The notes under the pieces: generated by a model
The model's database searches: none
What the model was told of the DNA's origin: nothing
The model's input: only the letters and a program-made list of their open reading frames with translations
Shown: piece by piece, positions 58,682-63,812 of the stretch
Layout of the letters: the number at the start of each line of letters is the position of its first letter
How positions within the stretch are numbered: position 1 is the stretch's first letter
Source: Porticoccaceae bacterium
GTDB taxonomy: Bacteria > Pseudomonadota > Gammaproteobacteria > Pseudomonadales > Porticoccaceae
Length of the DNA stretch: 64,000 nt
Reading direction: 5' to 3'
Assembly (NCBI GenBank): GCA_029252555.1
Contig: JAQXBF010000004.1
Location: forward strand, 1 to 64,000
Program-made: the position numbers and the translations under genes

Positions 58682-60493
58682 TTATTTTGGCGCGCGTTTG
58701 CGTAAGGTCTCAGTCAGAAGTTTTTTACGTAGACGGATGCTCTGAGGAGTCACTTCCACCAACTCATCGTCTTCAATAAATTCAAGAGCCTGCTCAAGGG
58801 TATGCTTGATTGGCGGCACCAGAGTCAGAGCTTCGTCAGTACCTGAAGCGCGTACATTAGTCAGCTGCTTGCCTTTAATCGGGTTGACCACAAGGTCGTT
58901 GCCACGGCTGTGAATGCCGACAATCTGCCCTTCGTAAACATCAATAGCATGACCCAGAAATAAACGGCCACGAGCCTGAATATTAAACAGGGCAAAAGCT
59001 GCAGTCTTGCCTTTAACCATGCTTACCAGAGCACCATTTTGACGGCTGTGCGCTTCACCTTCTTTTAAAGGGCCATAATGATCAAAGACGCTAGTCATAA
59101 TTCCCGAACCAGAGGTCAGGGTCAGGAAGGCGCCACGGAACCCAATCAGTCCGCGAGAAGGAATCATAAACTCTAGGCGCACACGACCTTTACCGTCTGG
59201 CTCCATATTGGTCATTTCGCCTTTGCGAATACCAAGCTCTTCCATTACCGAGCCCTGGTGCTGATCTTCTACATCAATAACAACCTGCTCGTAGGGTTCC
59301 TGAACGCTGCCATTGACCACTTTAGTCACTACTTCTGGGCGTGAAACACCCATTTCGAAACCTTCGCGGCGCATGGTTTCAATCAGTACAGACAGGTGAA
59401 GTTCGCCACGGCCTGAAACGATAAATTTATCGGGAGAGTCGCCCTGCTTAACGCGCAGGGCCACGTTGTGAATCAACTCTTGCTCAAGGCGGTCTTTAAT
59501 GTTTCTGGTGGTAACGTACTTGCCTTCCAGGCCAGCGAACGGGGAGTTATTGACGATAAATGTCATGCTCACTGTTGGCTCATCAACGCTGAGTGCTGGC
59601 AGTGCTTCAATATTATCTGGGTCGCAAAGGGTATCTGAGATACCGAGGCCATCGATGCCATTAATACAGACAATATCACCGGCTTCTGCCAACTCAGTTT
59701 CCACCTGATCAAGCCCCAAATAGCCTTTAACATTTAGGACCTTGCCCTTCCGCTCTTTTTCGTCAGAGGATTTAATGACCACCTGCTGCCCCGGCTTCAA
59801 AATGCCTCTGGTGATGCGGCCTACACCGATAACACCAACATAGCTGTCATAGGCCAGTGCCGAAATCTGCATTTGGAATGGGCCGCTAATATCAACCTTG
59901 GGAGCGGGGACATCAGCAACAATCATTTCATACAGAGGCGTCATATCCTCCGCCATATTGTCAGAATCAGTTCCAGCGATGCCGTTTAGGGCTGACGCAT
60001 AGATAACAGGGAAGTCGAGCTGTTCGTCGGTAGCGCCAAGGCTATCAAACAGATCAAAAACTTGATCCATTACCCAGTCTGGGCGAGCGCCGGGGCGGTC
60101 AACCTTGTTGATAACAACAATCGGGCGCAACCCCTGCTCAAACGCTTTAGAGGTTACAAACCGCGTCTGAGGCATAGGGCCATCAACCGCATCAACCAAA
60201 AGCAGTACTGAGTCGACCATCGACAGAACACGCTCTACCTCACCACCGAAATCGGCGTGTCCTGGGGTATCTACGATATTGATGCGGTAGTCATTCCATT
60301 TGATCGCAGTGTTCTTGGCGAGGATGGTAATACCGCGTTCTTTCTCCTGATCGTTGGAGTCCATCAGTCGCTCGGAACCAACGTCCTTGCGATCGAGAGT
60401 TCCTGACTGGCTCAGAAGTTTATCAACCAGAGTTGTTTTACCGTGGTCAACGTGGGCGATGATTGCAATATTACGCAAGTTTTCAATGGACAT
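58682..60493 (-). CDS. typA: Ribosome-associated translational GTPase TypA/BipA
   Basis: A 603-residue EF-G-like GTPase that helps 50S assembly and stress/cold adaptation. G1 [15 protein letters not shown], switch [18 protein letters not shown], and [13 protein letters not shown] are intact, followed by EF-G domains II, III and V and the BipA-specific C-terminal domain ([32 protein letters not shown]). In Pseudomonas typA neighbours thiI and glnA; here the thiI remnant and an EAL remnant lie between it and glnA. Confidence 0.97.
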
Positions 60494-60570: not shown

Positions 60571-61584
60571 TTAGCTGGAGGAGCCGTCCGCTGAAGCAGG
60601 AGAGTTACGTTCAATCAACATTCGGTTAAAGGAAGTAGGTGGAGATGGGGGTGCGATAAGGTTTCCCTGCAGAAATTGGCAGCTGAGATCAAGCAGCTGG
60701 TGGTGAATAATGGGCTCTTCAACACAGGGGGAAAAGCATTTTAACCCCACAGATTTGGTGCGTTCCACCAGTGCTTTCACCAAATTCCATGAGCCTTCAA
60801 TCTCAGTTGACTCGGCCATTAAGCGATAGGATATGCGAATGGCTTCAACCTGCAGTTTTCGGAGTTTTCGCAATGGCAGGCTCCAGTAGCCGATATTGTC
60901 AACCAGCAATCCACAGCCGAGCTCGTGAAGCCTTTCTACTTGTAGCTTCAATGAGCTACTTATTTTCGCTAGACATTCAGTTTGCAGGCCAAACATAAAC
61001 ATCCGCGGCTTTACCCCATGTTTAAGCATAATTTCTTGCACCTGGAGAATAAAAGGGGGGTGCTCTAGCTCACGCAAACTCTGGGTGAAGAGAATACGCT
61101 GTTGGTTTTGCCAGATTCCCTGACTGCGCCAAAGATTAATCTGCTTGCAGGTAGAAGCCCGGGCAGGCCATGGAGACAATAATGATGATGGTGCTGATTA
61201 GAATAGCGTCCTGCACCGGTGCACCATTGATAAACATTGGCGCCGCGAGGCCCCAAAATAGAGCACAAACAGCGATTGAGGCGAAAGCCGTAGTTTGGGT
61301 TTTGGCGCGGGGTGAGACACAAAGCCATACAAGCAAATAGCACAGCCCCAAACTGCCCATCCAGATGCTCGCAAAAAGTTGAATTCAGTGCCAAACCTAA
61401 CCAAAAGAAGGCCCAGACCGGCAATAATAGACAGAGCCACACTAGTGCCTAGATGGGTGACAATGGTTTGGTTTAGCTCAAATTTTACAGACTGATCTGA
61501 AGGTGAAGAGCTAGCGGTAGCGGCGTCCATGCGCTCACCGAGATCTGACTCATTGTTCGTCATCAGCTGTACCTTTCGGCTCAT
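60571..61584 (-). pseudogene. Ruined membrane EAL-domain signalling protein
   Basis: The N-terminal frame (ATG 61582-61584, or 61561-61563 with AAAGG upstream) encodes TM helices (THLGTSVALSIIAGLGLLLV); a frame shift near 61380 leads to SLGLCYLLVWLCVS, ALFWGLAAPMFINGAPVQ and ILISTIIIIVSMACPGFYLQ, stopped by TAA at 61136. A third frame from about 61145 gives only the second half of an EAL domain (INLWRSQGIWQNQQRILFTQ to QFLQGNLIAPP). The EAL motif half is missing and the catalytic DDFGTG is VDNIGYW. The linker and first domain half were evidently deleted, so no phosphodiesterase activity is expected. Confidence 0.75.
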
Positions 61585-61701
61585 TTATGACTTAACCTAA
61601 TTCTCGATACTTAAATATTGTTGATAATGCTAAAAAATGGGCACCAATCACCATAATACTGTGATTTACCTCCCATTTTTGGTCTATAGTTCCCAAATAG
61701 C

Positions 61702-62004
61702 CTAGGTTTTGGCGATAAAAACGGCAACCTGTTCAAAACCTTTGTCACGCATAAGCTGGGCCTGAAGGCGACTCATAATGCCCTTGCTACAATAGAGCCG
61801 ATATTTTTTTTGAGGGTCCAGCTCTCTTAGCCTCTGTTCGAGGTTAAAGAAGGGGATGCAAAGAATCTGGTTGTCTGGCAACGAAATTGGTTTGGCGTCA
61901 ATTTCTCCTGGGTGGCGCACATCAATCAAAATATCGCCCAGGGCTAGCTGGGAGATATGCTTTATAGTGCCAGTTCTAGAGGAAGCGATAATAAAGCCCT
62001 CAAA
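61702..62004 (-). pseudogene. thiI: 3' remnant of thiI: rhodanese domain of tRNA 4-thiouridine synthetase
   Basis: The open frame (no ATG; TTG 61927-61929 is the first likely start) reads IDVRHPGEIDAKPISLPDNQ, then CIPFFNLEQRLRELDPQKKY, the catalytic Cys in RLYCSKGIMSRLQAQLM, and KGFEQVAVF. This is the C-terminal rhodanese domain of E. coli-type ThiI, including the essential Cys. The THUMP and adenylation domains are absent: the frame is closed by TGA at 62005-62007 and no ThiI sequence is visible further up. Position between typA and glnA is where intact thiI sits in Pseudomonas. A short stand-alone rhodanese product cannot be excluded. Confidence 0.75.
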
Positions 62005-62141
62005 TCATTTAGCGACCTAAGTTTAATGGGGCACAGTTTGAGATTGCCAAAAATACAAAAACCGCGGGAAAAGATGACAGCAGTCATCGAGGTGGGCATT
62101 ATACCGATGCGGCTCATAATAATACTATTCGAAATCAAAAT

Positions 62142-62158
62142 CGCACCGTATAGGTGCA
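62142..62158 (+). promoter_or_regulatory. NtrC binding site 1 upstream of glnA
   Basis: CGCACC-N5-GGTGCA matches the NtrC palindrome TGCACC-N5-GGTGCA at all but its first base. It is centred about 160 bases upstream of the predicted sigma-54 start site. Confidence 0.8.
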
Positions 62159-62171
62159 CATCTTGCGAATA

Positions 62172-62188
62172 AGCCCCATTTTGGTGCA
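62172..62188 (+). promoter_or_regulatory. NtrC binding site 2 upstream of glnA
   Basis: AGCCCCATTTTGGTGCA matches the NtrC palindrome TGCACCA-N3-TGGTGCA at 12 of 14 fixed positions. It lies 30 bp from site 1, about three helical turns, the arrangement of the paired enhancer sites of enteric glnA. Confidence 0.7.
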
Positions 62189-62285
62189 TTTGTTATTGCT
62201 TGTAGTGGTCGCTATAGAGAGCACTTTGTTGCCTTAGCCGCAGTGGTGGTGGCGCTTTGAGTGCCTGACGTATCTTGTGGTTCAT

Positions 62286-62302
62286 TGGCATGACTATTGC
62301 TA
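62286..62302 (+). promoter_or_regulatory. Sigma-54 promoter of glnA
   Basis: TGGCAT-N5-TTGCT has the invariant GG (62287-62288) and GC (62299-62300) with exactly ten bases between, as in -24/-12 promoters (consensus TGGCAC-N5-TTGCA). Predicted start near 62312, giving a leader of about 95 bases. With the two NtrC sites it predicts induction of glnA under nitrogen limitation. The 400 bases between the thiI remnant and glnA hold no other feature I can support. Confidence 0.8.
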
Positions 62303-62405
62303 TCTTAATAGAGGAAAAAAACATTATTAACCAAGTCAGACCGGTTTCAATGCGCCGACTGACTTTTTAATCAAAAGCATTACTGATTCCATAGTGGAGG
62401 AAACA

Positions 62406-63812
62406 ATGTCTGAAAAGACTCTAAATCTGATTAAAGATAGTGAAGCTCGTTGGGTTGACCTTCGATTCACTGACACCAAAGGTAAAGAGCAGCACGTATC
62501 GATTCCTATCGGTGAAGTTGGCGAAGACTTTTTTGTCGAAGGTAAAATGTTTGACGGTTCGTCTATTGCTGGTTGGAAGGGCATTAACGAATCAGACATG
62601 ATCCTGATGCCAGATGACAGCACTGCGATGCTGGATCCCTTCACTGATGAGCCAACAGTTATCGTCCGATGTGGCATCGTTGAGCCTTCCACTATGCAGG
62701 GCTATGAGCGCGATCCACGGTCCATCGCCGAGCGCGCTGAGAAATACCTTGCGTCTACTGGCCTGGGCGACACTGCCTACTTTGGCCCGGAGCCCGAGTT
62801 CTTCGTGTTTGACGATATCAAATGGGGTGCCGACATGAGCGGTAACTTCTACAAAATTAACTCTGACGAAGCCGCATGGTCCTCTTCAATGGAACTAGCC
62901 GATGGCAACATGGGTCACCGTCCCGGTGTTAAAGGCGGTTACTTCCCCGTACCACCAGTTGATAGCCTGCACGATCTGCGTGCTGCTATGTGTGGTGCTA
63001 TGGAGCAGATGGGCCTTGAGGTAGAAGTGCATCACCACGAAGTGGGTACTGCTGGTCAGTGTGAGATCGGTATCCGTTTTGACACATTGGTTAAGAAAGC
63101 TGACCAGGTTCAGATTCTTAAATACTGTGTACACAATGTAGCTCACGCCTATGGCAAGACTGCGACCTTTATGCCTAAGCCAATCGTTGGTGACAACGGT
63201 TCTGGTATGCACTGCCACATGTCTTTCTCTAAAGGCGGCGACAACCAGTTTGCTGGCGATGCCTATGCGGGTCTGAGCGAAACTGCTCTGTACTATATTG
63301 GCGGTATTATCAAGCATGCCAAAGCGCTTAACGCCTTTGCCAATGCATCTACTAACTCTTACAAGCGTCTGATCCCAGGCTTTGAAGCCCCAGTAATGTT
63401 GGCTTACTCAGCGCGCAACCGTTCAGCGGCGATTCGTATCCCTTACGTTTCAAGCCCGCGCGGCAAGCGAGTTGAAGTCCGTTTTGGCGATCCAACGGCC
63501 AACCCATACCTGATGTTTGCTTCAATGCTGATGGCTGGTCTGGACGGCATCAAGCACAAGATGCACCCTGGCGACGCAGCGGACAAAGATCTCTACGATC
63601 TGCCCGCTGAAGAAGCTGCAGCTATTCCACAGGTTGCTGGTAGCCTGCGTGAATCGCTGGACGCATTGGATGGTGATCGCGAGTTCTTGACTGCCGGCGG
63701 TGTCTTCACCGACGATATGATCGACGCGTTTATCGAACTGAAGATGGAAGAAGTCTACCGTGTTGAGCACACCACTCACCCGGTTGAGTTCGATATGTAC
63801 TACAGCTGCTAA
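62406..63812 (+). CDS. glnA: Glutamine synthetase type I
   Basis: Makes glutamine from glutamate, ammonia and ATP; the dodecameric GSI-beta type. The 468 residues (E. coli 469) show [17 protein letters not shown], the metal/substrate segments [10 protein letters not shown] and [53 protein letters not shown], and the adenylylation site Tyr in [11 protein letters not shown], the target of GlnE (gene at 25206). ATG 62406 is chosen because GGAGG lies 5 bases upstream and [16 protein letters not shown] is the family start. Regulated by NtrC and sigma-54, as seen in the promoter. Confidence 0.97.

Follow-up and report, generated by a model that had tools for sequence, protein, structure and literature searches.

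What is encoded between typA and glnA in the window (the whole analysed stretch of DNA, 64,000 nucleotides long, from a Porticoccaceae genome)? The short reverse-strand frame found there, called thiI-C below, resembles the C-terminal part of the bifunctional enzyme ThiI, and it could be a gene remnant, the retained thiamine half of ThiI or a protein with a different task. The initial annotation described a ThiI-type rhodanese domain with its catalytic Cys at this place, noted the loss of the THUMP and adenylation domains, and left a choice between a dying fragment and a thiamine half that had been kept. The description of the domain and of its losses holds, while both of the fates proposed for it fare poorly. 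The domain might instead serve in the synthesis of the molybdenum cofactor (Moco).

The frame and its locus

The stop-to-stop frame at 61702–62004 on the reverse strand has 100 codons, none of which is ATG. The first canonical start codons in it are a TTG at codon 26 (61929) and a GTG at codon 29. The frame matches the profile TIGR04271 (ThiI_C_thiazole) with a score of 97.8 bits (E = 3e-28) over profile positions 14–99 of 101, well within the ThiI rhodanese domain family as delimited by the curated cut-off of 70 bits, and Pfam Rhodanese with 28.3 bits (cut-off 22.2). It carries the active-site loop YCSKGIMSR with the catalytic Cys67. Judged by its sequence, thiI-C is a ThiI rhodanese domain. 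The AlphaFold2 model of the 95-residue protein has a mean pLDDT of 89.3 and a pTM of 0.81, and the best ten rows of a Foldseek comparison of thiI-C with the Protein Data Bank are rhodaneses or persulfide-handling proteins with 22–30% identity. There is no ThiI among the nine sequence matches of thiI-C in the same databank. The features of the locus are as follows.

58682–60493, reverse strand: typA, the downstream neighbour (frame; matched in 49 of the 50 SAR92 genus genomes)
60571–61584, reverse strand: remnant of a GGDEF-EAL-type gene (GGDEF by eye), the next gene downstream of thiI-C
61702–61989, reverse strand: thiI-C, a stand-alone ThiI-type rhodanese of 95 codons from the proposed ATC, plus stop (TIGR04271, model)
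61717–61974, reverse strand: stretch matched by TIGR04271 (profile 14–99 of 101)
61789–61791, reverse strand: codon of the catalytic Cys67 in the loop YCSKGIMS (from sequence; Cys in 44 of 44 stand-alone sequences)
61987–61989, reverse strand: proposed ATC start, aligned with the ATG of genomes G013 and G019
61990–61992, reverse strand: ATT, a possible start alternative to the ATC
61998–62001, reverse strand: Shine-Dalgarno core GAGG, 8 nt before the ATC
62098–62103, reverse strand: TATAAT, a candidate −10 box (from sequence; also in many relatives)
62143–62157, no strand: GCACC-N5-GGTGC box, which we take to be NtrC-site-like
62173–62187, no strand: degenerate second GCACC-N5-GGTGC-like box, 30 bp off (by eye)
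62250–62265, forward strand: GG-N10-GC, candidate sigma-54-like glnA promoter (by eye)
62406–63812, forward strand: glnA, the divergent neighbour (frame; a glnA 87–97% identical to it adjoins thiI-C in 30 of the 43 genus loci)

The boxes and the GG-N10-GC motif between thiI-C and glnA suggest an NtrC/sigma-54-like control of glnA that might reach thiI-C too. Paired GCACC-N5-GGTGC-like boxes recur 5' of thiI-C in most of the genus loci scanned. A search of 61400–62600 against Rfam for an RNA element in the leader gave no match at E ≤ 1. On the other side of thiI-C, the GGDEF-EAL remnant looks like the result of an internal deletion. A 793-residue protein of another genome of the genus (G032) matches this remnant over residues 604–785 only (56.6% identity; Pfam: partial EAL domain), and adjoining the remnant is a short frame that looks membrane-like and has no Pfam match.

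The THUMP and adenylation (PP-loop) domains are absent from thiI-C, as initially described, and a search of the source genome (G000; 2.30 Mb in 40 contigs, 97.5% complete by tool estimate) with PF02568 and TIGR00342 found no ThiI core. One place in G000 was matched, over 35 of 197 and 46 of 373 profile positions, with the PF02568 match above the Pfam cut-off. It was rejected as a ThiI core: the frame carries all three Pfam domains of MnmA. Two simple explanations foreseen at the outset, an intact thiI elsewhere in the genome and an assembly gap at this point, do not apply, the only candidate for the former being this MnmA and thiI-C lying away from any edge of its contig (C39, 93,245 bases). 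With G000 at 97.5% completeness, a ThiI in the missing sequence is a slight possibility. Judged by gene content, thiI-C alone cannot be a tRNA 4-thiouridine synthase.

TIGR00342 reaches its cut-off in 0 of the 50 genomes of the SAR92 genus, against 39 of 112 in the family. Full-length ThiI, in frames of 486–575 residues, occurs in other genera of the family. In all 20 loci examined there, its gene lies next to a divergent glnA, precedes typA, or does both, and a TATAAT box comes before it in 16 of them (by eye). In the 43 genus loci with thiI-C, both glnA and typA flank the gene in 21, glnA only in 9 and typA only in 13, within the stretch fetched. That full-length thiI occupies the same glnA/typA locus in these other genera supports an origin of thiI-C by loss of the tRNA half, in agreement with the origin first suggested: of an ancestral thiI between glnA and typA, only the C-terminal domain would have remained once the THUMP and adenylation domains were gone. 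In terms of sequence, thiI-C is ThiI minus roughly its first 370–400 residues.

The identity of the divergent neighbour varies. In 5 of 13 typA-only loci inspected, it is a 336-residue frame that by eye is a type II glutamine synthetase. Such a type II-like enzyme stands beside thiI-C instead of glnA in a subgroup of the genus (loci L033, L037, L041, L196 and L198). It is also divergent from thiI-C in two loci of a further genus, g23 (L200 and L201; 336 residues, by eye).

Conservation and the molybdenum-cofactor genes

The closest named relatives (the best 80 of 163) belong mostly to the SAR92 clade or the Porticoccaceae, the isolates HTCC2207, MOLA455, H231 and H921 included, all four of which carry thiI-C. 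An intact short frame with a TIGR04271 score over the cut-off is present in 40 of the 50 SAR92 genus genomes. The gene is in pieces in three more, being split into two frames in G017 and cut by contig ends in G070 and G032 (in the latter the contig ends inside thiI-C, leaving 34 residues with 70.6% identity). The frame of G074 scores 61.5 bits, below the cut-off, and keeps the Cys. Five genomes (G005, G008, G010, G014 and G034) lack thiI-C; their empty loci hold no detectable remnant of it (best tblastn E 0.02), and glnA and typA are intact. In G071 (74% complete), no typA was found and the locus is missing from the assembly. All three genomes of genus g23 have a stand-alone thiI-C, and none of the 44 stand-alone sequences extracted, three of them from g23, has lost the catalytic Cys. 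An order-wide survey with TIGR04271 gave 231 of 390 over the cut-off, with frames of 341–764 residues among the matches listed; these stop above the scores of the SAR92-genus thiI-C and have no bearing on stand-alone copies. We found no paper on thiI-C in SAR92 among the titles and abstract openings of the papers listed.

In the assemblies of G011 (locus L243), G017 (L244) and G018 (L236), which have few contigs, a number of moa genes are each broken into two frames. Indel errors are the probable cause, and the split thiI-C of G017 may have the same origin.

The dN/dS ratio of thiI-C is 0.065–0.219 in twelve disjoint close pairs, chosen among the 40 closest pairs listed, and has a median of 0.18 over the 66 pairs with dS < 1.5, reaching ~0.5 at large distances. 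For the closest pair overall (dS 0.019) it is 0.29. Between G000 and G013 (dN 0.15, dS 1.7), the differences at codon positions 1, 2 and 3 number 13, 10 and 36, and between G074 and G075 dN/dS is ~0.1 with dS saturated. The initial annotation had proposed to look for decay in further breakage of the fragment at the same locus in relatives and in its dN/dS; intact frames in most of the genus and low ratios argue against it on both counts. thiI-C is an intact gene under selection, not a decaying one.

The moa genes of G000 stand in a row, moaC-moaD-moaE-mobA-moeB-moaB-moeA-moaA (most names given by eye and from similarity). The MoeB of this operon has 247 residues and a ThiF domain only, with no fused rhodanese of the MOCS3 type. 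MoeZR is reportedly another MoeB–rhodanese fusion. All 38 assessable genus genomes with a plain (rhodanese-less) MoeB have thiI-C as well (in pieces in G017, G032 and G070), none lacking it, and plain MoeB occurs in 0 of the 5 genomes that lost thiI-C (Fisher p = 1.5e-4, with genomes treated as independent of kinship and G071 and G074 left out). Two apparent exceptions to this link, G032 and G071, were rejected, the contig of the former ending inside thiI-C and the locus of the latter, with no typA found, being absent from its assembly. Among the 30 genomes that are at least 90% complete, 26 have both genes, G005 and G010 have neither but carry a divergent MoeB, and G008 has no MoeB and no thiI-C. 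In G074 (90% complete), which has the below-cut-off thiI-C, MoeB and MoaD were not found. Its thiI-C was called degenerate, yet with a dN/dS of ~0.1 and a retained Cys it may be a case of the domain without the Moco pathway. Five genomes, 74–82% complete, and possibly also G074, have thiI-C with no plain MoeB found.

In G005 (L232) and G010 (L233), both of which lost thiI-C, the moa operon is divergent. The moa proteins other than MoeB are 34–59% identical to those of G000, and the operon looks replaced. The G005 MoeB ends in a rhodanese-like domain with a CSSGKRS loop, which scores 27.2 bits against TIGR04271, below the cut-off of 70, and this tail has no Pfam Rhodanese match at E ≤ 0.001. 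The G010 MoeB is 92% identical to it over 173 residues, after which the contig ends before the rhodanese-like tail. A glnA tree of 34 genus genomes places the five genomes that lost thiI-C in one fully supported clade of seven, together with G074 and G075. The seven genomes measure 1.2–1.7 Mb, and if loss of thiI-C is irreversible, about three events within this clade are needed. All losses falling in one small-genome clade, genome reduction alone could have removed both thiI-C and MoeB. Outside the genus, G057 and G058 of g23 carry a moa operon with plain MoeB, and several genomes of g35 encode proteins of MoeB length and show no ThiI rhodanese above the cut-off.

In the proposed mechanism, Cys67 of thiI-C would be loaded with a persulfide, for which IscS is the most likely source, as it is for full-length ThiI; within the MoaD–MoeB complex, thiI-C would hand this sulfur on to MoaD at its C-terminus, which is adenylated there. 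The resulting MoaD thiocarboxylate would then be used for building molybdopterin. thiI-C would thereby be the separate-protein counterpart of the rhodanese domain that is fused in MOCS3, acting beside a rhodanese-less MoeB. The evidence that points to MoaD is the co-retention of thiI-C with plain MoeB and its loss where MoeB is gone or divergent, that is, about three losses in one genome-reduced clade. Against it stand the five genomes with thiI-C and no plain MoeB found, G074, the MoeB-length proteins of g35 with no ThiI rhodanese, and the low score of the rhodanese-like tail of the G005 MoeB. According to excerpted literature, IscS and TusA supply sulfur to MoaD in E. coli, and the presence of TusE in 45 of the 50 genus genomes, all five that lost thiI-C included, also counts against this role. 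The explanation as a whole, an intact stand-alone ThiI rhodanese of SAR92 that passes persulfide sulfur to MoaD and is translated from an AUH start codon, is given a probability of about 0.42. Its most far-reaching version is possible but doubtful. There, a bifunctional enzyme would have lost both of its known jobs and its relay domain would have been reassigned to Moco, so that the job of MOCS3 is split and rebuilt from ThiI, with an AUC, AUU or AUA start held low by IF3 in one branch.

Rhodaneses are versatile, and it is quite conceivable that thiI-C is a general persulfide carrier or one with another acceptor (FdhD, MnmA, TtcA or low-molecular-weight thiols), or that it handles sulfane sulfur, the link to MoeB being indirect. 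FdhD in particular would match the presence pattern: FdhD-like and formate dehydrogenase-like frames adjoin several moa operons (by eye). G074, which keeps the frame with no MoeB or MoaD found, fits such a carrier too. What speaks for MoaD over these acceptors is that thiI-C is missing where moa has given way to an operon whose MoeB is fused to a rhodanese. MnmA was set low as an acceptor, since TusE, which belongs to its relay, is still there in each of the five genomes without thiI-C, so that this relay does not track the gene.

The start codon

The absence of ATG, with only a TTG in its place, had been read as weighing toward decay. The homologues suggest a different reading. Where G013 and G019 have their ATG, the aligned codon of G000 is ATC, and at the homologous position of 14 related genes there is ATC in 8, ATT in 3, ATA in 1 and ATG in 2. 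A purine-rich core (mostly GAGG) lies 7–8 nt before this codon in the 14 genes, though the spacer sequence varies; in G009, for instance, the Shine-Dalgarno core is 8 nt before the aligned start codon. The 14 genes are a hand-picked set that omits G027, with only a GTG, and G077, which has no ATG and whose ATT follows a stop and a single codon. An AUH codon in 12 of 14 genes, at a homologous position behind a Shine-Dalgarno sequence, has the appearance of a non-canonical start like that of infC, and the missing ATG is probably a near-cognate start of this kind and not a sign of decay. Translation of thiI-C in the G000 species and in part of the genus would then begin at an AUH codon, which would keep expression low and sensitive to IF3.

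It is unlikely that the protein starts at the TTG at 61929 or at another downstream codon and that the AUH start is a misreading. No canonical start codon precedes the TTG in the frame, and the 75-residue version that it would give still scores 89.9 bits against TIGR04271. In the AlphaFold2 model, a start there would remove strand 10–12 and cut the core strand 20–23, inside which the TTG falls; the homologous position, the Shine-Dalgarno spacing and the ATG of G013 and G019 all favour the upstream start. Six of the 12 AUH genes (G000, G012, G021, G069, G078 and G080) have no ATG, GTG or TTG earlier in the frame, and in the other six a canonical codon upstream in the frame makes the AUH reading weaker. 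Over the N-terminal 16–21 codons, dN is near dS in several pairs; the values are noisy, show no clear purifying selection and support neither side.

The AUH start resembles known non-canonical starts under IF3 control, those of infC and of Streptomyces sigR, as described in the excerpt of PMC5472188: infC, which IF3 represses, begins with ATT in E. coli and with ATC in Streptomyces. Unlike in infC, the third base of the start of thiI-C drifts between C, T, A and G from species to species. Control of thiI-C by IF3, drawn by analogy with infC, is putative.

Thiamine, decay and known relatives of thiI-C

The second fate proposed at first, that the thiamine half was kept as the present role, has the domain give sulfur to ThiS for thiazole synthesis, as happens in Salmonella and in those insect symbionts whose thiI is rhodanese-only. 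This is very improbable here. TIGR04271 is named for thiazole, and the excerpt of PMC10654098 describes an insect symbiont, Arsenophonus of Ornithoica, in which thiI is reduced to its rhodanese and the thiamine pathway is kept, citing Wigglesworthia and Ca. Pantoea as further rhodanese-only cases. In G000, there is no match for ThiG (PF05690). The PF05690 cut-off is passed in 8 of the 50 genus genomes, but six of these matches are partial (~90–97 of 247 positions, in frames of 324–341 residues) and full-length ThiG (E ~1e-100) is confined to two sisters, G001 and G081. thiG and thiI-C do co-occur in this pair; however, its operon, thiC-thiO-thiS-thiG-thiDE-thiF(rhodanese) (L207 and L208; frames other than ThiG and ThiF by eye), has its own ThiF with a C-terminal rhodanese. 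Limited to two sister genomes of the genus, the operon is either a gain or a relic. The Thi4 route fares no better: PF01946 passes its cut-off in 50 of the 50 genomes, every match listed ends by position 82 of 235, spanning just the FAD motif, most lie in longer frames, and there is no true Thi4 among the matches listed. By gene content, thiI-C does not appear to serve thiazole synthesis in G000 and most of the genus.

That thiI-C is a functionless remnant of thiI, the dying fragment of the initial annotation, is hardly credible, for although the ATG and the THUMP and adenylation domains are gone, the adjacent downstream gene is itself a remnant and 6 of the 7 genomes of the reduced clade either lack thiI-C or have a frame that scores under the cut-off, the frame is intact in 40 of 50 genomes and in pieces in 3 more, the Cys is kept throughout, and dN/dS is low with differences mostly at codon position 3.

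In its domain and active-site loop, and in the glnA/typA locus shared with other genera of the family, thiI-C is like the C-terminal rhodanese (TIGR04271) of full-length gammaproteobacterial ThiI; unlike the latter, it stands alone, with no THUMP and adenylation domains. The reduction to a rhodanese domain has a parallel in the insect symbionts, as far as the excerpt of PMC10654098 describes them. The symbiont Arsenophonus keeps its thiamine pathway, whereas the holders of thiI-C are marine genomes, mostly with no ThiG. The closest functional parallel to the proposed role would be MOCS3 and other MoeB–rhodanese fusions. In humans, the rhodanese domain of MOCS3 donates sulfur to the MoaD homologue (excerpt of PMC5372717), and by analogy thiI-C would be a rhodanese sulfur donor to MoaD beside the MoeB adenylase. 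Unlike the MOCS3 domain, it is separate and ThiI-derived, not fused, and its function is putative.

Several consequences follow if this explanation is true. A lone match to TIGR04271, annotated as a "thiazole biosynthesis protein", does not imply a thiamine pathway. Gene callers limited to ATG, GTG and TTG would shorten thiI-C or miss it, and AUG, AUC, AUU and AUA at one homologous site would make a natural series for near-cognate initiation. Bacteria with a rhodanese-less MoeB would have a new sulfur route to MoaD, and a domain would have outlived both textbook roles of its enzyme. A free-living ocean genus, nearly all of whose members have no pathway for the thiazole ring of vitamin B1, lost the tRNA-modifying half of ThiI, and the sulfur domain that it kept may now feed the molybdenum cofactor.
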